Of a stretch of DNA of 64,000 nt, positions 42,034 through 55,224 are shown one piece after another. Source of the DNA: Bacillota bacterium (GTDB lineage Bacteria; Bacillota; Clostridia; Peptostreptococcales; Acidaminobacteraceae); the NCBI GenBank assembly GCA_024636005.1, contig JAGXHV010000032.1:1-64000 (forward strand), written 5' to 3'. Below the pieces are notes generated by a model. That model had not been told where the DNA came from and made no database searches. It saw only the letters and a list, made by a program, of their open reading frames with translations. The position numbers and the translations under genes are program-made. Each line of letters begins with the position of its first letter. The stretch's first letter is position 1.

Positions 42034-43107
42034 ATGGAATGGAAACAATGTTTGACCGCTTTTGAGAAGTCGGTATATATCAAATTCATAAAAACACTTT
42101 ATAAGGATGATCCATTTTATGTGGACTATTCAACACCGATACTTATTGAGATCTTCGCTGAAAAATCACCGTTTTCCAGAAATTTGTGGTACGAATCCTA
42201 CTTAATTATGCACTCTGGCGAATTGGTGGGAGTTTTGACATATCTGATCCATAAACATTATTGTGATGTGCTCCAAATCGCATTTTTGGAGTTTCTCGAT
42301 ATCGACGGATTACCACAGTTGATTCTAGATCATGCGGGTCTGATCGCAAAAGATAAAGGCGTCAAGGAAATCGTGATCGGATTAAATGGTCACGTCAATT
42401 ATGGTCTGGGATTATCAGTGGAACAATCCCATCGCCCAACATTTGGCTCTGTTTATACAAAAGCTTATTACAGCAAACATTTCAAGGAGCTTGGCCTAGA
42501 AGAAACGAGGCTGGTCTCTTTTCAGTATCCTTGGGAAACGAAAGAATTTCCCATGTCGATGGAAAAGAAAAATAGATTTTACGAGAGATTCAATTTTCGA
42601 ATCATGCGGAAAGAAACTTTTGATCGTGATATTGAGATTTATACTGCTCTTAACAACAAATGCTTCGGGGAACACCCATTTTATTTCCCGAGAACAGTTG
42701 AAGAAGATCGATTCTTATTCAAGGATCTGAAATATTTCATGGAGAAAGGCAGTTTGATTTTTGCTGAAGACGATGGAAAACCCATAGGTTTTTTACTTTG
42801 GTATCCTGATTGGGGTGAGATTATGCACCGGGGTGAGACGCTTTCGGTCATTACTTTCATCAGAAAGATTTTTTTCGGTAAAAAAGTGAAGGGCTTTAAG
42901 ATCGTTGAATGGGCTGTTCTACCTGAATATAGAAGAAAAGGGGTTCCAGTCGGTTTGTTGGCTCACTGTTTTGAAATGGTTAAAGACAGACAATTCACAA
43001 AGTGTACAACGAGCTGGATTGTTGAGGCCAATAAGGATTCAAGCGGATTTGGAGACAAATGGGCTGAGCCTTATGAGCACTATGCAGTTTACACATTGAA
43101 ACTATAA
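42034..43107 (+). CDS. GNAT-superfamily acyltransferase-like protein
   Basis: C-terminal GNAT-like IVEWAVLPEYRRKGVPVGLLAHCFEMVKDRQF; N-terminal half is also NAT-like. Confidence 0.65.
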   Translation: MEWKQCLTAFEKSVYIKFIKTLYKDDPFYVDYSTPILIEIFAEKSPFSRNLWYESYLIMHSGELVGVLTYLIHKHYCDVLQIAFLEFLDIDGLPQLILDHAGLIAKDKGVKEIVIGLNGHVNYGLGLSVEQSHRPTFGSVYTKAYYSKHFKELGLEETRLVSFQYPWETKEFPMSMEKKNRFYERFNFRIMRKETFDRDIEIYTALNNKCFGEHPFYFPRTVEEDRFLFKDLKYFMEKGSLIFAEDDGKPIGFLLWYPDWGEIMHRGETLSVITFIRKIFFGKKVKGFKIVEWAVLPEYRRKGVPVGLLAHCFEMVKDRQFTKCTTSWIVEANKDSSGFGDKWAEPYEHYAVYTLKL

Positions 43108-44046
43108 ATGAGGACAATGATTATGATGAACCCGTTTCTGAAAGAAGAGCTATGGCCTGTACTGGAAAAAACCCACGATGGTGAGTGTGAAAGACACGTC
43201 ACAGGTAGTGCTGTATTCACCACTTATTACACCAAACTCAATCTGCTGTCTTTTCAGAAGGGAAAGATTCAAAAAAGAGTAAGGATCTTAGGACTACCAC
43301 CTTCCATATCGCTTGGAGGTTTTGAGGTGGAGAACGGACAAGGACTTGATGAAATCCAGGAGTGGTTGACTGACCAAAACGGACATACCCTCGTGATTAA
43401 TTCAGAGGATCCCCTCGCAGGTAATTTCTCTTGCGTTCCGACTTTGCCCTCAGTGATCGTCGATAATAGATTTGAGAGTTTTGACCATTATTTGAATGAG
43501 CTCAGATCGCATTACAGATATAGGGCAATCAAAGCCATGAAAAAATTTGAAGGCATTGTTCAAAAGCAAAATGAACCTTTTGATAGGGCACTTTATGATT
43601 TGTATGACGCTGTATTTCAAAACTCCGATTATCCTCTTGCAAAGAACGATATGATTTTTTTTGAGCAGTTCCCAGGAACAATCGAGCAATTTTATTTTGG
43701 AGACACACCCCTTGGATTCTGTCAGTATTATATTGCTGAGGACACACTCTATTTCATGTTTTGTGGAATCAATTATAAATTGCTGAAAACTTATGACACA
43801 TATTTGAATATGCTTTTGGTCATCATTCGAAGGGGAATAGAGGCAGGTGTCAAAAGGATTGATCTTGGTCAAACCACAGAGACCATCAAACAAAAGCTTG
43901 GTGGAACATTGAAGCCACTGTATATATGCCATTATCACAAGAATCCGTTGACCAGAAGACTTATGAAAAATGTCATGCCGCTACTGGGATACACTGCACC
44001 GAAGGTTCAATATCATATCTTTAAAAATAATGGGGATCAATCATGA
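43108..44046 (+). CDS. FemAB/GNAT-like acyltransferase
   Basis: YLNELRSHYRYRAIKAMKKFEG, FYFGDTPLGFCQYYIAEDTLYFMFCGINY, GVKRIDLGQTTETIKQKLGG. Confidence 0.6.
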   Translation: MRTMIMMNPFLKEELWPVLEKTHDGECERHVTGSAVFTTYYTKLNLLSFQKGKIQKRVRILGLPPSISLGGFEVENGQGLDEIQEWLTDQNGHTLVINSEDPLAGNFSCVPTLPSVIVDNRFESFDHYLNELRSHYRYRAIKAMKKFEGIVQKQNEPFDRALYDLYDAVFQNSDYPLAKNDMIFFEQFPGTIEQFYFGDTPLGFCQYYIAEDTLYFMFCGINYKLLKTYDTYLNMLLVIIRRGIEAGVKRIDLGQTTETIKQKLGGTLKPLYICHYHKNPLTRRLMKNVMPLLGYTAPKVQYHIFKNNGDQS

Positions 44047-44639
44047 GTATTTGGAATTTGTATGAAAAGACATATGAAAAACTTTGGGTTCAGCATATAT
44101 CTCTTAGACCGACCAGAAAAGCGGTGATCAGAGCACTCTCTAGTTTACATTTGCCAGAGAACACGCTGCTTGATATGAGTTGTGGTACGGGTCAGTTGCT
44201 TGATGATCTAAAAAGAGATTTGCCTGAAATTAAATGTATGGGTGTGGAACCGTCATTAATGAGACGCGCTGCGGCCTCCAAAGGTCATAAAATTCTTGAG
44301 AGCAATGTAGAGCATTTTGAATCCACTGAAAAATTTGGATGTATCGTGTGCACTCACGCATTTCCATACTTCTCGGATCAGCAAGACGCCATTTCCAGAT
44401 TTTCAGAGCATACGCTTCCTGGTGGATATCTGATTATCGCTCATGCTGAGACAAAAACAATATATGATCTACTCATGCTAAAGATTGTGAAACTAACAAC
44501 TTCAAAAGCGAATTATCCGGCACCTTCAAAGATGAAAGAGCTTTTGGAACCTTATTATAAAATATGTGACGTGGTAGAAATCAATGCTTGGTACGTCCCA
44601 AGCATCACAATGTATGTCGCGCGAAAAGGTGAATTATGA
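44043..44639 (+). CDS. Class I SAM-dependent methyltransferase
   Basis: LLDMSCGTGQLLDDLK (motif I); ATGA overlap with the preceding gene. Confidence 0.85.
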   Translation: MSIWNLYEKTYEKLWVQHISLRPTRKAVIRALSSLHLPENTLLDMSCGTGQLLDDLKRDLPEIKCMGVEPSLMRRAAASKGHKILESNVEHFESTEKFGCIVCTHAFPYFSDQQDAISRFSEHTLPGGYLIIAHAETKTIYDLLMLKIVKLTTSKANYPAPSKMKELLEPYYKICDVVEINAWYVPSITMYVARKGEL

Positions 44640-45964
44640 AAATCGTACTATTGCGCCCAAAACCAGATTCAGAAACCATTGGACTCCAGCATGTCATGAT
44701 CTGTGAGCCGCTTGAACTTGAGTATGTAGGCGCAGTTCTTGAAAAAGATCACCAAGTGGTGCTCTATGATATGATTCTTGAAAAAAAGACTATTGAAGAA
44801 ATCATCGCTATTGAGATGCCCGACATGGTTTGCATGACCGGTTACATTTCTCATGTGAATATCCTGATGGATTACAGCAGTAGGATCAAACTGATCAATG
44901 ATAGGATATTGACTGTGGTCGGGGGCGTTCATGCAGAGGTCATTCCTGAGGATTTTGAAAAAGGTTCGTTTGATTACATCATTTCCGCCAATCCGCTGGA
45001 TCATATCGTATCCATTGCAAATGGCACCGTTTATCCAAGAATCATCAAAGCTGTGAAATCGAGAACATTTGAGTACTCGCATCCTGCAAGACATCTTGTA
45101 GACCGTTACAGAAAAGACTACTATTACATGTTTCACAATCCGTGCAGCCTCATCAAGACCTCTTATGGTTGTCCATACAATTGTTCGTTTTGCTTTTGCA
45201 AGGCCATCACGGACGGGAAATATTTCACAAGGCGAGTTGAAGATGTGATTGAGGAACTAAAAACGATTGATGATGAAGAAATCTATATTGTGGATGATGA
45301 CTTCCTTTATGATGAGAAGCGGTTGACAGCTTTTTGCGATGCTGTTGAGGCACATCAGATCCACAAAAAATACTTAGTATACGGTAGAGCGGATTTCATT
45401 GCGGAACATCCGGAAATGATGAAAAGACTTAAAGGTGTCGGTCTTCGTGCGGTGATTGTTGGGCTGGAATCTTATTCGAATAAAGATCTTGACAGCTATA
45501 ATAAGAACAGTCAAATAGGTGCGAGCATCGCTTGCATAGAATTGCTCAATGCAATGGATATTGAATGCTATGGGACGTTTATCATTGGACTGGACTGGAG
45601 AAAATCAGATTTTAAATCACTTAGACACTTCATTGTTCAGACAGGGATCCAGTTTGTGAATCTTCAGCCACTTACACCAATGCCGGGAACCAGTTTGTAT
45701 GAAAGTACTAAGAAAGATTGGATTGTCAAAATGGATGATTTTGCCAAATGGGATATGGCTCATCTGGTGCTTCAGCCTGAACACCTATCCATAAGGCGAT
45801 ATTATTTTGAAATCGTCAAACTCTATTATAGAGTGACTCTAAGACCTACAATGGTCATCAGAGCGCTTAAAAAATATCCATTCAAGGAAAACATCAAACT
45901 AACCATCGGCGCAAACAGAGTGATGTGGCAGTATATCAAAAGAATAATAAAGGGGCAACCATGA
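44636..45964 (+). CDS. Radical SAM protein with B12-binding-like N-terminal domain (no. 1)
   Basis: CPYNCSFC (CxxxCxxC); N-terminal VVGGVHAEVIPEDFEKG B12-binding-like; ATGA overlap. Confidence 0.92.
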   Translation: MKIVLLRPKPDSETIGLQHVMICEPLELEYVGAVLEKDHQVVLYDMILEKKTIEEIIAIEMPDMVCMTGYISHVNILMDYSSRIKLINDRILTVVGGVHAEVIPEDFEKGSFDYIISANPLDHIVSIANGTVYPRIIKAVKSRTFEYSHPARHLVDRYRKDYYYMFHNPCSLIKTSYGCPYNCSFCFCKAITDGKYFTRRVEDVIEELKTIDDEEIYIVDDDFLYDEKRLTAFCDAVEAHQIHKKYLVYGRADFIAEHPEMMKRLKGVGLRAVIVGLESYSNKDLDSYNKNSQIGASIACIELLNAMDIECYGTFIIGLDWRKSDFKSLRHFIVQTGIQFVNLQPLTPMPGTSLYESTKKDWIVKMDDFAKWDMAHLVLQPEHLSIRRYYFEIVKLYYRVTLRPTMVIRALKKYPFKENIKLTIGANRVMWQYIKRIIKGQP

Positions 45965-47280
45965 AAAAGAAAATCTTATTGATTCAACCCTCTCCTTATG
46001 CACCGGATGGCAATGTAATCAAGAAAAAAAGGCTTCATTTCGTTGGTCTATCACTTCCGCTTATCGCAGCATTGACGCCGGACAACTATGAAGTAGAGCT
46101 CATATATGAAACCATAGAAGAAATTCCATGGCACACGGAAGCTGAAATCATAGGTATATCCTCCATGGGACACGGTGTGCATAGAACCATCGACATCGCA
46201 AAAGGCTTTAAGGCTCTTGGTAAAACAGTGGTTCTAGGGGGTTATATGGTCAGTCTTTTGCCTGAAGAGGGGCTTAAATACGCAGATGCGGTGTTTGTTG
46301 GTGATGTGGAGACTTCATGGGGAATCTTCCTAAGTGATTATGAGACAGGTTTGATCAAGACAGTTTATGATATGCCGCTTACCGAGTATTCTCCACCTTT
46401 ACCGCGCTATGAACTGATTGCACATAAGAAAATTGGGAGTTTTCTACCTGTGCAAGCCGGCAGAGGTTGCGTGAACCATTGTTCTTTTTGCTCGGTGGCA
46501 TGCCTCTATCAAGGGCGCTATTTAAAAAGACCTGTTGATGAGGTCATGAGAGATATAAAAGAAGTCAGGAGACTGGGGTACAAACAGTTTTTACTGCTCG
46601 ATGACAATATTTTTTCAGACCGAGTTTATACGAAGGCACTGTGCGAGGCGATTAAACCTTTGAAGATGAAGTGGATGACGCAATGCACTGTGACCATAGG
46701 AGACGATGTGGAGCTGCTCAGGCTCATAAAGGACAGCGGGTGTATCGCACTCTCTTTTGGTCTCGAGAGCATTACACAGAGCAGCCTGGACGGCATGGAT
46801 AAGCCTTGGGCCAAAGTCAGTGAATATGAGAGGTTGATCAAGGCAGTCAGAGATGAGGGGATTCAGGTTTCGACAGAGATGGTGGTCGGGGCAGATGGTG
46901 ACACACTCGAATCCATTAAAAACACAGCCAAATTCATCAATGACCTTAAGATTGCAGTGCCTCGTTTTTATATTTTGACACCGATCCCTGGAACACTTTT
47001 TTTTCATCAGATGAGCGATGAAAATCGAATTTACAATAAGGACATCTATTCATATAATGGGGCTGAGGCTGTTCATATCCCCAAAAACATGTCTCCTGAG
47101 GAACTTACAGATGCATACTGGGCGCTTTATAAGGAGGTTTTCAGTTATAAGAACATCATAAAGCGGACGGTTTTTCAAAAAGGATTTTTCGTGAATCCAC
47201 TTTTGTCAGTTTTTTATCTGTACATCAATCTTTATTATAGGCATCAGATCTTTAGGGGAATCACCCCGAATATAATTTAA
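45961..47280 (+). CDS. Radical SAM protein with B12-binding-like N-terminal domain (no. 2)
   Basis: GRGCVNHCSFCSVACLYQGRY; VVLGGYMVSLLPEEGLKYADAVFVGD; true start 45961 by ATGA overlap. Confidence 0.92.
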   Translation: MKKKILLIQPSPYAPDGNVIKKKRLHFVGLSLPLIAALTPDNYEVELIYETIEEIPWHTEAEIIGISSMGHGVHRTIDIAKGFKALGKTVVLGGYMVSLLPEEGLKYADAVFVGDVETSWGIFLSDYETGLIKTVYDMPLTEYSPPLPRYELIAHKKIGSFLPVQAGRGCVNHCSFCSVACLYQGRYLKRPVDEVMRDIKEVRRLGYKQFLLLDDNIFSDRVYTKALCEAIKPLKMKWMTQCTVTIGDDVELLRLIKDSGCIALSFGLESITQSSLDGMDKPWAKVSEYERLIKAVRDEGIQVSTEMVVGADGDTLESIKNTAKFINDLKIAVPRFYILTPIPGTLFFHQMSDENRIYNKDIYSYNGAEAVHIPKNMSPEELTDAYWALYKEVFSYKNIIKRTVFQKGFFVNPLLSVFYLYINLYYRHQIFRGITPNII

Positions 47281-47292
47281 TGAGGAGCGGAC

Positions 47293-48666
47293 ATGAAAAT
47301 TCTTTTGGTCAGACCTTGGGTGAATAAGAACATCACAACAGTAAAGAATTACTTGTTTGGAGAACCTATGGGTCTCGAATGCTTTTCTACGCTTTTAAAA
47401 GAGAATGGTGTGGAGGTGCTACTTGTGGATTTCATGGTGGAGACAAAAGCCGCCGTTGAAACCTATCTGAAAAGTTTCAGACCGGATGCGGTGGGCATCA
47501 CTTCACAATGCACTGATGTCGAGAACGTCAAAGAGATTGCAAAAGCAGTGAAACTTTACTGTAAAACGACTCCGGTCCTGGTCGGTGGGGTTCAAGCATC
47601 CTGTTTCCCGAATGCCTTTTTTGTACCCGAAGTGGATTATGTATTCAAGTCAACCACGCGTAAAAATGTAAAAGAGGTTTTAGAGGAACTTATAGGCGGT
47701 TCAAATCTCGAGCAAATCGAGGGCATCTATAAAAAATCACACGATTATATCAATGAAGGTGAATTTTGCTACAACGAATATGTCGTTCCTGATCGCAGCT
47801 GCACTGAAAAATACCGAAAATCCTATAAATATGTAGGGTATCAACCATGTGCCATCGTTCAAACCGCCTATGGTTGCAGAAACAGATGCACGTTTTGCAT
47901 ACGCTGGAAAATTGAAGGCGGTGAGCTGAGGGAAGTGCCTATTGCTGAAATTGTCGATCAGATTGCCGCTCTAAGTGAGCCTTATGTGATGATCTGTGAC
48001 AATGATTTTCTGATCAACGCATCGAGACTTCTATCATTTTGTGATCTACTCGAAGCCAGGGGCGTTAGAAAAGAATTCATTTGTTATGGCAGTGTGAATA
48101 GCATTCTTGAAAAACCTGAGCTGATGTCCAGACTTAGAAGAAGCGGATTGGTGGCAGTGATTGTGGGCTATGAAGCTTTTGAAAACAAGCAATTGTCGAT
48201 TTACAACAAAGCGTCGACCATAGATGACAACGAGAAGGCGACATCAATACTTAAAGCAAACGGCATCGCATGTTGGGGGTCGTTCATCTTACATCCGGAC
48301 TGGACAAAAAAGGATTTCAAAAAACTGCTGGATTACCTTGATTATCTGAAACCTGAACTCGCCACTTTTTCACCTCTGGTTCCACATCCCATGACGCCAC
48401 TGTATGAAACCTATAAGGATCGTCTGCTTTATGATGCTGATGATTACGACAAATGGAATTTTGGAGATGTGCTCATCCGTCCATCCAAGATGAGTCTCAA
48501 GGCTTACTACTGGGAAGTGCTTAAGCTCAGTCTCAAAATCAACGGGAATTTTTACAGCGTCAGGTATACTCTGAAGGCATTTCCTATAACAAACACCTTG
48601 AAAATGATCACAGGATTCAATACTCTTTTTGCCATTTACATTAAAAATATGCTGACGAGGAGATAA
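47293..48666 (+). CDS. Radical SAM protein with B12-binding-like N-terminal domain (no. 3)
   Basis: AYGCRNRCTFCIRW; VLVGGVQASCFPNAFF; GAGGAG RBS. Confidence 0.92.
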   Translation: MKILLVRPWVNKNITTVKNYLFGEPMGLECFSTLLKENGVEVLLVDFMVETKAAVETYLKSFRPDAVGITSQCTDVENVKEIAKAVKLYCKTTPVLVGGVQASCFPNAFFVPEVDYVFKSTTRKNVKEVLEELIGGSNLEQIEGIYKKSHDYINEGEFCYNEYVVPDRSCTEKYRKSYKYVGYQPCAIVQTAYGCRNRCTFCIRWKIEGGELREVPIAEIVDQIAALSEPYVMICDNDFLINASRLLSFCDLLEARGVRKEFICYGSVNSILEKPELMSRLRRSGLVAVIVGYEAFENKQLSIYNKASTIDDNEKATSILKANGIACWGSFILHPDWTKKDFKKLLDYLDYLKPELATFSPLVPHPMTPLYETYKDRLLYDADDYDKWNFGDVLIRPSKMSLKAYYWEVLKLSLKINGNFYSVRYTLKAFPITNTLKMITGFNTLFAIYIKNMLTRR

Positions 48667-48667
48667 A

Positions 48668-49972
48668 ATGAAAGTATTGCTCGTGAGACCAGAAGTGCCC
48701 AATCTATTCAAATATGCGAATTTGATCACATGCGAACCCCTTGAGCTGGAGTACCTTTATACTGAAATCACAGCCCTTGGACATAGTGCACTTATTTTTG
48801 ATGGCGTATTGGATAAGAAAGAATATGTAAAAATTCTTGAAGAATTTGGTCCTGATTTAGTTGCCATCACGGGGTACATCACTCAAGAGAATTTGATGAA
48901 AGCATATGCGCTCGAGGCCAAAAGACACAATCCACACGTTCTGACTGTGGTGGGAGGTGTCCACGTACAGCTCAATCCAGAGCGGTTCAAAGTGAGAGGT
49001 ATCGATTATATCTTTCGGAGTGAATCCATGAAAGCTTTTGGAGCATTATTGGATGCACTTGCAAGTGGGAATAGTGTTTTAGAGCCAATTAATGGGTTGA
49101 TGTATAGAGACATGGACGACTGGATAGAAAATGCACTCAATCCAGCGGATATTGACGAACTTTCTATTCCAGACCGATCCTATTTTTATACCCATATGGA
49201 AAGATACAATTATTTGGACCTGAACGCCGTGGCAACCATCAAAACTTCATTTTCATGTCCTCACAACTGTAACTTTTGTTACTGTACAAAACTTGGAGGT
49301 GGGGTTTATAACGCAAGGAACCTCGATTTGGTCATAGAAGAACTGGTTGGAATCGGTTCTGAAAACATCTTGATTGTAGACGATGATTTTCTCGCGGATA
49401 TAAGTCGAACTGAGCAGTTTGTGAAGCGGGTCGAAGAAGCAGGACTGAAAAAAAACTATATCTGCTATGCGAGAGCGGATGCTGTAGCTGAAAGTCCACA
49501 GCTGATCAAAGATATGGCTGAGATAGGCTTCAAATATTTCATTGTGGGACTTGAAGCCATCACAGATATGGATTTGAAGAGTTATGACAAAATGACGACT
49601 GAAGACATCAACCGTAGATGTATTGAGAATATACATGCTACAAGTGCAGAGGTTATAGCACTCATGATGATTTCACATAAAGCAACCAAAGATGACTTTA
49701 AGGATCTGTACAGATGGGCAAAAGAAAATAAACTCAATTATACTACCGTATCTATTTTTACACCAATACCAGGAACTCCATTATATGAAATTCATAAAGA
49801 TGAGATCACAAGTAAGAAGATTGAGCATTGGGATTTTCTGCATTTGGTACTGAAGCCGGAAAATATGAACAAGTTCCAGTTCTATTTTCATTTTATAATG
49901 CTTTCTTATAAACTCTACAGATATGGGAAAAAAACTGGTGGATTCGATTTCAGAAAGAAAAGCCAAGAGTGA
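48668..49972 (+). CDS. Radical SAM protein with B12-binding-like N-terminal domain (no. 4)
   Basis: SFSCPHNCNFCYCTK; TVVGGVHVQLNPERFKVRGIDYIF. Confidence 0.92.
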   Translation: MKVLLVRPEVPNLFKYANLITCEPLELEYLYTEITALGHSALIFDGVLDKKEYVKILEEFGPDLVAITGYITQENLMKAYALEAKRHNPHVLTVVGGVHVQLNPERFKVRGIDYIFRSESMKAFGALLDALASGNSVLEPINGLMYRDMDDWIENALNPADIDELSIPDRSYFYTHMERYNYLDLNAVATIKTSFSCPHNCNFCYCTKLGGGVYNARNLDLVIEELVGIGSENILIVDDDFLADISRTEQFVKRVEEAGLKKNYICYARADAVAESPQLIKDMAEIGFKYFIVGLEAITDMDLKSYDKMTTEDINRRCIENIHATSAEVIALMMISHKATKDDFKDLYRWAKENKLNYTTVSIFTPIPGTPLYEIHKDEITSKKIEHWDFLHLVLKPENMNKFQFYFHFIMLSYKLYRYGKKTGGFDFRKKSQE

Positions 49973-50036: not shown

Positions 50037-50072
50037 AAAGCCAAGAGTGCGAGCACTCTTGGCTTTATTTTA
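50037..50072. terminator. Perfect-arm terminator hairpin between convergent genes
   Basis: AAAGCCAAGAGTGC-ga-GCACTCTTGGCTTT followed by ATTTTAT. Confidence 0.85.
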
Positions 50073-50075
50073 TAG

Positions 50076-51623
50076 CTATTTTAAATCATTCAACCGCTCT
50101 TTGAGTTCATAGAGATCGATTCTTCTATTTTTTAGAAGTGTGACTGTTCCAGAATGTCTTGAACGTTTGAGCAGTTCGAGATCGACATCTCCAACGATTA
50201 CAGTTTCAATGTTCGGTGTACATTCTGCCATAATGCCATCTCTAGGGAAAGAAAAATCAGAAGGCGTGAAAATAGCGGACTGCGCATATTGGATATCCAT
50301 GTTCTCAACATGGGTCAGGTTGCCGACAGTTCCCGCAATAACAGTATAAACCTGATTCTCAACAGCTCTAGCTTGAGCGCAGTATCTAACGCGCATATAC
50401 CCTTGACGTTCATCCGTACAAAATGGAGTGAATATGATATTGGCGCCTTTTTCAGTAACGATTCTGGCGAGTTCAGGAAATTCGATGTCATAACAAATCA
50501 AAATTGAAATTTTACCGCAATCCGTATCAAAGACTTTAATGGAATCACCCGTGGTGATGCCCCACCATTGTTGTTCGTTTGGTGTGATGTGAAGCTTGTA
50601 TTGCTTGTCTATTGTCCCATCTCTTCTGAAAAGATAAGCGATGTTATAGATTTGTCCGCCTTCCTCAACAAAATGAGAACCTCCGATGATATTGACATTA
50701 TATTTGACTGCGAAATCCGTAAAGATCTGAATGTATTGTTCCGTGAATGTAGTTAACATTTTTATGGACTTAGATGGTGTGTCCTGATCCATGAACGAAA
50801 GCAACTGTGTCGTAAAGATTTCTGGAAATACGACAAAGTCAGATTTGTAGTTGGATGCGACATCCACGTAATACTCGCATTGATGTGAAAATTCCTCAAA
50901 CGAACGAATTTTTTTCATCATATATTGTATGACACAGATTCTTACGGGCATTGCAGTTTTAAAATGTTGCTTACCTTTGGACTGATATTCTATGTTGTTC
51001 CATTCCATCAATGTCGCATACTGAAGTGATGCTTTGTCATCAGGCATGTATTTTTTTATGACTCGTTTCAAAACGAATTCACTCTTAAGCTGGAAAGAAA
51101 GAATTGGGTCATAAATATTGAGTACGGTGACTTCCCTCACATATTCTTTGGGACTCATTTTGTTTGCATAGTCCTTGTACCCTGGAATCCTACCGCCGAT
51201 TACTATACTTTTCAGGTTCAATTGCTGAACCAATTCCTTGCGTGCCTCATAAAGTCGTTTACCGATTTTCATATTTCTATAATCGGGATGGACCATGATT
51301 TCAATGCCATAAAGGTTGTAACCATCAGGATTGTGGTTCGTGATATAGCCATTGTCAGTAATCTCATCCCAGGAGTGTTGATCGTTATACTCATCAAAAT
51401 TGATGATCAGGCTGGAACTGGAACCAATAATTTCACCATCGTATTCCACACAAATCTGACCTTCAGGAAATATCGCATGATGACTTTCAAGCTGAGAGAG
51501 TTTCCATAGCTCCATATTTTTAAAACATTTTTTTTGCAGTTCTATTATGGAATGAAAATCCTCTCTTCTTATCTGACGTATGATAATTTTTTTTTCAAAT
51601 TTTGATAAATCAATGTTTCCCAT
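50076..51623 (-). CDS. Bifunctional GNAT N-acetyltransferase / carbon-nitrogen hydrolase
   Basis: GNAT: IEIMVHPDYRNMKIGKRLYEARKEL; nitrilase: VVFPEIFTT (Glu), YKLHITPNE (Lys), ILICYDIEFPELAR (Cys). Confidence 0.9.
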   Translation of the reverse strand: MGNIDLSKFEKKIIIRQIRREDFHSIIELQKKCFKNMELWKLSQLESHHAIFPEGQICVEYDGEIIGSSSSLIINFDEYNDQHSWDEITDNGYITNHNPDGYNLYGIEIMVHPDYRNMKIGKRLYEARKELVQQLNLKSIVIGGRIPGYKDYANKMSPKEYVREVTVLNIYDPILSFQLKSEFVLKRVIKKYMPDDKASLQYATLMEWNNIEYQSKGKQHFKTAMPVRICVIQYMMKKIRSFEEFSHQCEYYVDVASNYKSDFVVFPEIFTTQLLSFMDQDTPSKSIKMLTTFTEQYIQIFTDFAVKYNVNIIGGSHFVEEGGQIYNIAYLFRRDGTIDKQYKLHITPNEQQWWGITTGDSIKVFDTDCGKISILICYDIEFPELARIVTEKGANIIFTPFCTDERQGYMRVRYCAQARAVENQVYTVIAGTVGNLTHVENMDIQYAQSAIFTPSDFSFPRDGIMAECTPNIETVIVGDVDLELLKRSRHSGTVTLLKNRRIDLYELKERLNDLK

Positions 51624-51753: not shown

Positions 51754-54700
51754 ATGAGCATAAGAAAACGATTGGGAATAGAGTTCGGAAATATCGATCC
51801 GATTACAACAAGTGAAGATAGGATCAAATATATAAATTTAAAATTGGCATCTCTTGGCCTGCCAATTTATAAATCAAAAGATGATGATAATGCGTCCGGG
51901 TCTTATTTCATTGATCTCTTTGATGACATCATACAGGATTACAAAGAAAAAACTAGAATGGTGGATATTCATGAAATCGGGATTCACAAAAGGATCAATC
52001 AATTTTTCAAGGGCTATTTCGATGAATTTGGTGAAGAGCCAAAAGTGGTTGAAGATTATTTCACCTTGGATCATTATGGACTCGCTAGAGAAATGTCACT
52101 ACCACCTGAAGGCAGTACTTTCTTCAATGAATACATCAGCAGTTATAGGATCAAACAAGGGGTGCTTAACAATCCTAGAAATGACAGACGAACAACTAAG
52201 GGATCTTTCCATATTGCTGAGGGCGGTTTGCCAATCCCATATGACAAAAAAGCCGTCCCCAAAGAAGTTTTTCTCAAATTGTACAATGAAGCTATCAACC
52301 CACCCGAATCACTCAAGATTTTACCATTTACATCAGAGCAGAGTGAACCCGCGAAAACTTTCGTTTCATTGATGCTTAAACCTATAGTTTCTCCAAAAGT
52401 GCCTGGAGTATTGGATGAAAAGACTATGGAAGTCCTTTTTATAGCACCCGGAAGTCTCGTCTCCAACTTGGATTTTGTCGAGTCAGTATTTGGAAATGCT
52501 GGTGATCCGAGTTATCACAGCAATGATGCCGGACTTGATTTAAATGGATGGTCTGGCCATACTGGATTCATTTTACTCGCTCCTCATTTGAGCAAAATGA
52601 GAAAAATAGATCTTGGACTTCCTCATTATGATATGGCAACGGAAAGACAGCGACGAGATGGTATGTGTTATAAAGATGAAAATGAACTTTATAATGAGGG
52701 TCAGGCGTTTAAATTGACTTGCCGTGACAAGAGCGGAGTGGCTGTGACTTTGATCGCAGACAATTACTTCGGGTATTCCAAAAAAGAGATCAAGACCCAA
52801 ATCAGTTTTGCCGCTAACCTTCTCGGAAATGTCGAAGAGGAACACGCCGGAGGAACAATAGCATATCCTCAAAAGAATCTTGGTGAGAATTATACCGCCA
52901 AAGAGGACAAAAGTGTCTCCGGGTACAATTTTGAAGAAGTCATTAAGGAATTTGGAGATATGATGGAGCTTCATGACGATTATTATGGAGTGGACAAAAA
53001 CAACAAGCAAATCATATATCTTCCTGAGAATGTGGAGATCGATCTCCATAAGACTGAAATCAAATGGTATTATCAAAGCCGTGAAATAACTCTGAAATTA
53101 TCACCTGCAAATATATATATCCTTCCAAACGGTGAAAAGATCCATATGGAAAAACACCCTGCCGCACCTGCTTGGAAAATGGTGGGAACGGCTGCTGAAG
53201 GCACGTTTTGTCATAAACCATGCACAGTGTCGGGTGGAGGAAAATCCGAGATCTCAAAATCCATCAGCAATTCCATAATTTATGGTACTTATTATGTCCA
53301 CGACCTTGCAAAAGACCTTGATAACGTAGAGCGGATTTTCAATTATGATTACAGGAAGCGTTGGAGAGACTTTCCAGACCGCGAAAGAGCGTCAAGAACG
53401 ATCCTATCAATCGATAGGACACTTGGATCAGTAATCAAACTGTTGTCACCATCACCAGCTTATACAGATGAATTCAATGCTTATCTGGAGGCTATTCCAA
53501 ACCACGTCAAAGCACTTGTGTTCATGATCAAAAGGTTTTATCGTCAGTCATGGGAAAATGACTGGAGGAAGCACTTTACTGTGGATCATATCAATGGGAA
53601 GCCTGGAAATGAAATCAATTTCAACAACAGGAGAATCAGACCGAGTTATTTAAGAGTCGGTTTTGAAAACGATGACGCGTGGCGAATTTTCAAACTGAGA
53701 ATAGACTTCATGCCAAGCGAAAAAATCCAAATGGAAGATGACGTCACAGCCTCAGTCCTTATTCCAGCGAGACAATTATCACATCTCAATCCACAATATA
53801 CAAACGGTAGTTACAAGTTTTCCACCAATTGCGAGTATAGATTTTTCCAAAGACCGGACGAGGCCATCAACAAAGGTTATGACAAACAAGCGGAGAGGGA
53901 TCTATCCAGTAGGAACCTATTCGCCACAAATTATCAACCTTTGACAAAGAAAGACGTCAAAGCCATACAAGATGATGTCATGGGATACATTGATTATACC
54001 CAGCCTGTAAGAACTCATATAGAAGAGTTTCTTGCAGGGGAAGATGAGTATTGTGTGGTTTCCTCAGAACCTAGAATTGTCGATGGAAAACCAAGCAAGA
54101 ATCCCCGCTATCTCGAACATCGATCAGACTTTATTGATCCTCTTAAAACCTATGTTTCTCATATTGGAGCGAGACTTGCAAGGAAAATACCGCTCGATAA
54201 GCCTGTGTTGATGCCAGTGAACGCAATTCTTGCCGGGAGAAGAAATAATCCGCCTGGTATGGAAGGTGACAAAAAAATATTGCCATTAAGTGTTTATAAT
54301 CCAATTCATTATCAGGAATTACCAGAGCTTTTCATGGACTTCATCAGCAGCTTGACCGGAAAATCGCCTTCGACAACCGGTGCAGGATCTGAAGGAGCGC
54401 TCACTAAGGCACCATTCAACATGTTGCTGCCAATTCATGATGTCAACAATGCATTGTTATCGTACATTCTAGGGGATTACGCTGTATTCACAACGCCCGC
54501 AGGATATATTGGCGCAAATGTGAAAGTTGATCATGACATCTCTATTTTAATACCTGAAATTTGGTCGAGGTTGTCAGAAGAGGAATGTAGACCGGAACAC
54601 TTGATTGGTGAAGGTTCATTCGAAAAAATTGAGGACTTCACGTACAATGGGATTCATGTCCCTGCCAGCAGATTGGGTTATAGGATGACAGAAGTGTTTT

Positions 54701-55224
54701 CTTATAAATATCTGGGTAAGATTTTTGATGAGCCTCAGACCGTTTTCAACGAGGAAATCCTGAAACCGGAGACACAGAGTATGGATGCATTTGTGGATGG
54801 TATAATCAATATATCAAATGGTCATAAGAAAGCGGCACTGGATTATTTTGAAGATGGTAGTATTGAACTTGCGATTCCTCCGCTCAAAGCATTATTGACC
54901 ATCATGGCAAAAGGATCCTATGATGGTCATACCATCGAATCAAAAGAAGTACGTGATCTCTTTGATAAAAACGTTGTCCTATCCAGTGAGTGGTATACAG
55001 AGCGGCTAAAAAACAAACAACTCATTGACATTAGACTGATTCAAAAGAAGATTCGCAACCTGGAAGAATTTGTTTCAGATCCAATCAACAAATCAATAAT
55101 CAAAGAGTTTCATTATGATGAAAAACTTGAACAGGCTAAAGCAGATCTAAAACACATTGAGTCCGAACAATATCTCGAATCGCTTGTTGGCACTATTGGA
55201 GCCGATGGAGCTACACTTAACTAA
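51754..55224 (+). CDS. Large (1156 aa) protein of unknown function
   Basis: Single long ORF with AATAGGAGGCG RBS; conserved-looking stretches HTGFILLAPHLSKMRKIDLGLPHYDMATERQRRDGMCY, YFGYSKKEIKTQISFAANLLGNVEEEHAGGTIAYPQ, HKPCTVSGGGKSEISKS. No TM or signal peptide noticed. Confidence 0.85.
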   Translation: MSIRKRLGIEFGNIDPITTSEDRIKYINLKLASLGLPIYKSKDDDNASGSYFIDLFDDIIQDYKEKTRMVDIHEIGIHKRINQFFKGYFDEFGEEPKVVEDYFTLDHYGLAREMSLPPEGSTFFNEYISSYRIKQGVLNNPRNDRRTTKGSFHIAEGGLPIPYDKKAVPKEVFLKLYNEAINPPESLKILPFTSEQSEPAKTFVSLMLKPIVSPKVPGVLDEKTMEVLFIAPGSLVSNLDFVESVFGNAGDPSYHSNDAGLDLNGWSGHTGFILLAPHLSKMRKIDLGLPHYDMATERQRRDGMCYKDENELYNEGQAFKLTCRDKSGVAVTLIADNYFGYSKKEIKTQISFAANLLGNVEEEHAGGTIAYPQKNLGENYTAKEDKSVSGYNFEEVIKEFGDMMELHDDYYGVDKNNKQIIYLPENVEIDLHKTEIKWYYQSREITLKLSPANIYILPNGEKIHMEKHPAAPAWKMVGTAAEGTFCHKPCTVSGGGKSEISKSISNSIIYGTYYVHDLAKDLDNVERIFNYDYRKRWRDFPDRERASRTILSIDRTLGSVIKLLSPSPAYTDEFNAYLEAIPNHVKALVFMIKRFYRQSWENDWRKHFTVDHINGKPGNEINFNNRRIRPSYLRVGFENDDAWRIFKLRIDFMPSEKIQMEDDVTASVLIPARQLSHLNPQYTNGSYKFSTNCEYRFFQRPDEAINKGYDKQAERDLSSRNLFATNYQPLTKKDVKAIQDDVMGYIDYTQPVRTHIEEFLAGEDEYCVVSSEPRIVDGKPSKNPRYLEHRSDFIDPLKTYVSHIGARLARKIPLDKPVLMPVNAILAGRRNNPPGMEGDKKILPLSVYNPIHYQELPELFMDFISSLTGKSPSTTGAGSEGALTKAPFNMLLPIHDVNNALLSYILGDYAVFTTPAGYIGANVKVDHDISILIPEIWSRLSEEECRPEHLIGEGSFEKIEDFTYNGIHVPASRLGYRMTEVFSYKYLGKIFDEPQTVFNEEILKPETQSMDAFVDGIINISNGHKKAALDYFEDGSIELAIPPLKALLTIMAKGSYDGHTIESKEVRDLFDKNVVLSSEWYTERLKNKQLIDIRLIQKKIRNLEEFVSDPINKSIIKEFHYDEKLEQAKADLKHIESEQYLESLVGTIGADGATLN

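Follow-up and report, generated by a model that had tools for sequence, protein, structure and literature searches.

A stretch of 64,000 nucleotides (hereafter the window) from contig JAGXHV010000032.1 of a Bacillota bacterium of the family Acidaminobacteraceae (assembly GCA_024636005.1) carries an operon of seven genes, G1-G2-MT-A-B-C-D, all on the forward strand and spanning about 8 kb (42034-49972). All seven encode enzymes of recognised superfamilies, and by sequence the four radical S-adenosylmethionine (SAM) enzymes among them, A to D, fall into four separate orthologue groups inherited with the others as a unit. What is new is a conserved, uncharacterised seven-gene pathway, the enzyme superfamilies being already known; no account of the gene set turned up in the literature, as far as open-licence papers go. 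The operon may well be a dedicated biosynthetic pathway for one uncharacterised small molecule made from a primary metabolite, possibly a lipid, whose carbon skeleton the radical enzymes would rework, a reading to which we give about even weight.

Four radical SAM enzymes and their partners

An earlier note on this DNA, made from the sequence alone, described four adjacent open reading frames (ORFs) with CxxxCxxC motifs in one operon. Its coordinates proved exact save for the start of B, which is the ATG at 45961 and not the GTG at 45925 upstream, and Pfam places a Radical_SAM domain in all four products (E 1e-11 to 1e-18). The four are A (44636..45964, CPYNCSFC), B (45961..47280, CVNHCSFC), C (47293..48666, CRNRCTFC), and D (48668..49972, CPHNCNFC). 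The motif is intact in 33/33 orthologues of A, 33/33 of B, 28/29 of C, and 34/34 of D, the exception in C being a truncated gene. While the note was correct in assigning four radical SAM genes to the operon, it missed G1, G2, and MT, with which the operon starts earlier, at 42034. These three genes run into A with 4-bp overlaps or zero gap, and throughout the operon neighbouring genes overlap or sit a few bases apart. A 139-bp divergent intergenic region precedes G1, and a 13-bp stem-loop followed by a T-rich run at 50037..50066 (forward strand), found by a terminator scan 3' of D, is the probable operon terminator.

The B12-binding-like N-termini proposed in the note are also borne out. The Pfam B12-binding domain (PF02310) is matched in all four proteins; B of the window scores below the Pfam cut-off (25.1 vs 32.1 bits), and all eight B orthologues tested match at E <= 0.001 (best E 5e-9). 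The GG motif of this domain is present in nearly all orthologues. As the 2.54-Mb assembly (77% complete) contains only eight B12-binding matches in total, four of them at this operon, their clustering here is not due to chance. Use of cobalamin in catalysis by A to D is predicted, and a corrinoid adenosyltransferase of the CobA/BtuR type is present in 18/18 producers tested, making a supply of corrinoid plausible. The B12-radical subgroup mostly methylates, but its members OxsB, HpnJ, BchE, PbsB, and ladderane synthase instead make rings or rearrangements (PMC13142503), and thus the type of reaction catalysed by A to D is not readable from the fold.

A to D each form one clade in a 125-sequence tree (Shimodaira-Hasegawa-like approximate likelihood ratio test support 98-100). 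A, C, and D are sister groups and B is separate, in agreement with the note's view of A, C, and D as paralogues and B as divergent. On sequence, A to D are four separate conserved enzymes rather than redundant copies. Because these distinct orthologous clades stay apart across the phylum, which would be unexpected for redundant copies, the tree points to four different steps as a simpler reading than one iterative reaction, and the iterative methylation suggested in the note is not upheld.

The first gene of the operon, G1 (42034..43107), encodes a predicted acyltransferase with tandem GCN5-related N-acetyltransferase (GNAT) domains (Pfam Acetyltransf_1). Its AlphaFold model (predicted local distance difference test score, pLDDT, 93) has as fold neighbours in the PDB tandem GNATs that use coenzyme A (CoA): a glucosamine N-acetyltransferase, a tandem GNAT of the clavulanate pathway, and mycothiol synthase. 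Of the CoA-binding motif [QR]xxGx[GA], the [QR]xxG part is kept in most orthologues, and the last position is often V or P. G2 (43108..44046) is a FemAB/MprF-like double-GNAT transferase, with Acetyltransf_6 matched in 27/31 orthologues and FemAB_like in 10/31 (Pfam). The 22 best PDB matches to its AlphaFold model (mean pLDDT 92) are all of the aminoacyl-transfer RNA (tRNA)-dependent transferase kind, namely MprF/A-PGS, FemX, and the streptothricin ligases Sbb17/Sba18 (template modelling scores, TM, 0.52-0.63; E 1e-6 to 1e-8; about 12% identity). By predicted fold, G2 is probably an aminoacyl-tRNA-dependent transferase. MT (44043..44639) is a predicted class I SAM methyltransferase (Pfam Methyltransf_23/11/25) whose stop codon overlaps the start of A; it lies directly 5' of A in every locus read and is fused to A in loci L041 and L042.

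Co-inheritance of the set and its two modules

Orthologues were sought in 395 genomes of the same order and in a sample of the phylum, with thresholds of E < 1e-200 for the B profile, E < 1e-110 for G1, and E < 1e-50 for G2, and 34 loci were read in Bacillota, including those of Petrocella sp. FN5, HGW-Firmicutes-2, and Acetoanaerobium pronyense, plus an A. noterae record. B is the most conserved radical SAM enzyme of the set, and its profile leaves a wide gap: 25 of the 395 order genomes and seven further phylum-sample genomes fall below 1e-200, the next match being at about 1e-97. The 25 order genomes with a B orthologue are also precisely those with orthologues of G1 and G2 (hypergeometric 4e-40, assuming independent genomes, which they are not). 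G1, G2, MT, A, B, and D are found together in 34/34 loci despite a shuffled order (for example, G1 G2 D MT A B C or MT A C D B G1 G2). The orthologues are thus clustered across Bacillota, not scattered, and this conserved clustering, together with B, G1, and G2 co-occurring without exception, strongly supports the note's proposal that the genes act on one shared product. It also refutes the idea of a chance run of unrelated paralogues, which only the commonness of these superfamilies would favour and which, with clusters in loci of many families and one clade per gene, we regard as almost certainly wrong.

Some loci depart in detail. The contig of L037 breaks off, with G1 at the end of another contig; A is split over two frames in L031; the B frame of L122 was masked in ORF calling by an antisense ORF; and A and B share one frame in L112, possibly a sequencing effect. 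A tblastn search of plasmids (PLSDB) gave one true match, a 2.6-Mb, chromosome-sized A. noterae record listed as a plasmid, the others being distant radical SAM proteins.

Within the set, pairwise identities suggest two modules. Those of G1, G2, MT, A, and B inter-correlate (Spearman 0.57-0.79), and those of C and D correlate with each other (0.80) and weakly with the other genes (0.34-0.55). In a partial Mantel analysis controlling for B, the C-D link persists (r 0.75, p 0.001) while A-C (-0.09) and A-D (0.15) do not, and G1 retains a moderate link to C (0.40). Two types of C/D pair can be distinguished. Type 1 is found in the window's genus, L038, Petrocella, L110-L112, and L114, with 62-71% (C) and 49-56% (D) identity to the window outside its own genus; type 2 occurs in most other loci, with 39-45% (C) and 27-42% (D). 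D is the fastest-diverging radical SAM enzyme, and C is the sole gene of the set that is sometimes lost or moved, being lost, degenerate, or relocated in six lineages: it is relocated in genomes G125 and G151 (an internal stop interrupts the G151 copy), survives as its C-terminal part in L107 and as a 32-residue remnant in L123, and was not found in genomes G312 or G762. From this covariation, loss, and relocation, C and D appear to determine a variable part of the product, with C optional. In one genus C and D are separated by a gene for a calcineurin-like phosphoesterase (L110 14328-15149, L111 14662-15486, L112 4730-5869).

No polyketide synthase (PKS), nonribosomal peptide synthetase (NRPS), or transporter gene is common to the loci, nor, within the operon or among neighbours of at least 90 amino acids, is a precursor peptide gene. 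Large PKS/NRPS-type genes adjoin B in L103 (1-9011), where C normally sits; as this is one genome only, with its C on another contig, they were set aside.

On the opposite strand downstream of the operon, window positions 50076-51623 encode a protein in which a GNAT domain is fused to a carbon-nitrogen hydrolase; this gene adjoins the operon only in the window's own genus and was not found in same-genus genome G024. G024 is without the cluster, and neither gene flanking the operon was found there, leaving no empty site to show gain or loss. Base composition (operon 40.6% GC, flanks 38.9-39.3%) is uninformative on recent transfer. A very long single ORF at 51754-55224 (1156 amino acids) may, by eye, encode a pyrophosphate-type phosphoenolpyruvate carboxykinase.

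A candidate pathway and its alternatives

In the pathway that we propose, G2 would transfer an amino acid from charged tRNA to a primary-metabolite acceptor as an amide (or ester), and G1 would use an acyl-CoA to acylate an amine. By analogy with BchM/BchE, MT and A would work as a coupled pair, with methyl-ester formation or a similar activation followed by radical chemistry. B would perform the core radical step common to all producers, after which D and then C would act on the variable part and set two chemotypes, C being an optional last step. At each radical step, a 5'-deoxyadenosyl radical and a corrinoid would bring about C-methylation or ring formation or rearrangement. The fuller version of this proposal, for which we claim somewhat less than even confidence, is that anaerobic Firmicutes use the operon to make a natural product or cofactor of a new class, and that neither PKS, NRPS, nor a precursor peptide takes part. 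Four different B12-radical enzymes would act in sequence to rework an aminoacyl amide derived from tRNA, and the co-evolving C/D pair would set two chemotypes.

Several points weigh against this proposal. A TM near 0.6 at about 12% identity places G2 in a fold class and is not proof of tRNA use, and tandem CoA-GNATs also occur lower in its list of fold matches. The loci have no conserved transporter or regulator in common. The assignments of enzyme roles, substrate, and cobalamin binding draw on sequence and predicted fold, B12-like domains can occur without the cofactor, and gene loss and covariation allow no more than a guess at the order of steps.

A possible, clearly less probable, alternative is that the operon decorates or remodels a membrane lipid or amphiphilic amino-lipid, with G2 aminoacylating a head group in the manner of MprF and the radical enzymes methylating or cyclising acyl chains or the head group. 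MprF, a lipid aminoacyl-transferase, is indeed the top fold match of G2, but G2 is without the membrane domain of MprF and its TM-scores are higher to the soluble Sba18/Sbb17. Similarly, HpnR, a hopanoid methylase, is the best NCBIfam match of A, C, and D, and HpnJ that of B, which suggests lipid chemistry, but the likeness to HpnR is far under its cut-off. The only direct pointer to chemistry on lipids or acyl-amino acids is an insert within the operon, between B and D, with genes for an N-acyl amino acid synthase of the FeeM type and for a phosphatidylserine decarboxylase (L124 10717-11951, L125 6486-7720, L123 8104-9392), yet this pair is present in three loci only, and the loci have no fatty-acid or head-group gene that all of them share. 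A parallel cluster of multiple radical SAM genes on a Citrobacter plasmid, with a GH3 adenylase, a PAP2 phosphatase, and a fatty-acid desaturase, also speaks for a lipid.

We consider it unlikely that the product is a soluble metabolite of amino-sugar or aminocyclitol type or a mycothiol-like cofactor, in which the radical enzymes would be AprD4-like dehydratases or HpnJ/OxsB-like ring-changers, G1 would acetylate an amine, and G2 would add an amino acid. Of the relatives with a solved structure, AprD4, an aminoglycoside radical enzyme, is the closest in sequence to A and B, but this likeness is confined to the radical SAM core. In fold, G1 is like glucosamine N-acetyltransferase and mycothiol synthase and G2 like the streptothricin aminoacyl ligases, and the lack of a transporter would be in keeping with a cofactor that stays inside the cell; on the other hand, no glycosyltransferase, sugar-nucleotide, or cyclitol gene is common to the loci.

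Action of the radical enzymes on a ribosomally synthesised peptide or on a protein is very improbable. Many B12-radical SAM enzymes do modify ribosomal peptides, and the radical enzymes have weak NCBIfam matches to ApyD and ocin-type models. However, intra-operon gaps in most loci are too small for a shared precursor gene, and no neighbour of at least 90 amino acids recurs consistently across loci, a search that did not cover smaller genes outside the operon or distant precursors. Aminoacyl-tRNA-type ligases, moreover, build peptides without a precursor gene.

Under the proposed dedicated pathway, four separate B12-radical steps and a tRNA-type ligase without a scaffold-making enzyme would be an unusual combination. 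Few pathways are known with several B12-radical SAM enzymes, and unusual chemistry has tended to come to light in them. A scaffold-free route, which genome-mining rules based on PKS, NRPS, or ribosomal peptides may overlook, is what a tRNA-type ligase paired with radical enzymes would suggest. As cultured anaerobes (Acetoanaerobium noterae, A. pronyense, and Petrocella) have the operon, and natural C-less variants, among them those of L118, L122, and L123, and MT-A fusions are available, the product and the order of steps are directly testable.

Comparison with known systems

Placement in a known pathway, which by the note's own terms would have refuted it, was not seen for the four radical enzymes: all score far under NCBIfam cut-offs, and the hopanoid, bacteriochlorophyll, and other named families were rejected on these scores and on the essential absence of a hopene cyclase. 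HpnR (hopanoid C-3 methylase, TIGR04367) is the best match of A, C, and D, nearly full length and with the same domain order, but at 145-156 bits (A 156) against a cut-off of 650; there are also three parallel copies here, each in its own clade. HpnJ (hopanoid ring-contraction enzyme, TIGR03471) is the best match of B, with 94 bits against a cut-off of 578, and differs in that the producers have no hopanoid pathway. Squalene-hopene cyclase (PF13249) is absent in 17/18 producers, with one partial weak match, the Bacillus subtilis control being positive. The second-best match of A, C, and D is BchE (Mg-protoporphyrin cyclase, TIGR02026; 98-120 bits, cut-off 481), but this operon has no porphyrin genes. 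BchE works paired with the methyltransferase BchM, as A would with MT. Among solved structures, those nearest by sequence to the radical enzymes are AprD4, OxsB, CysS, and TokK.

For G2, the comparison is with MprF, which, unlike G2, has a membrane domain, and with FemX, which acts on a peptidoglycan precursor and shares its fold; to our knowledge, no enzyme of the Sba18/Sbb17, MprF, or FemX type has been linked to radical SAM genes.

Also observed was a second, distinct type of cluster. It usually has B-like B12-radical SAM genes, four or five in tandem, along with a GH3-type adenylase, a protein of about 230 amino acids, and a GNAT-like protein of about 350 amino acids. Its loci (L126 13971-22889, L129 7189-15982, L130 4737-13663, L131 4957-13637, L132 7520-15599; L133-L136) are in several Firmicutes and on a plasmid of Citrobacter portucalensis, the one with the PAP2 phosphatase and fatty-acid desaturase. 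Like the seven-gene operon, this cluster, itself apparently uncharacterised, has GNAT genes next to radical SAM genes of the B12 type that stand in tandem; unlike it, its radical SAM proteins are all B-like, GH3 stands in place of G2, and MT, A, C, and D are absent.

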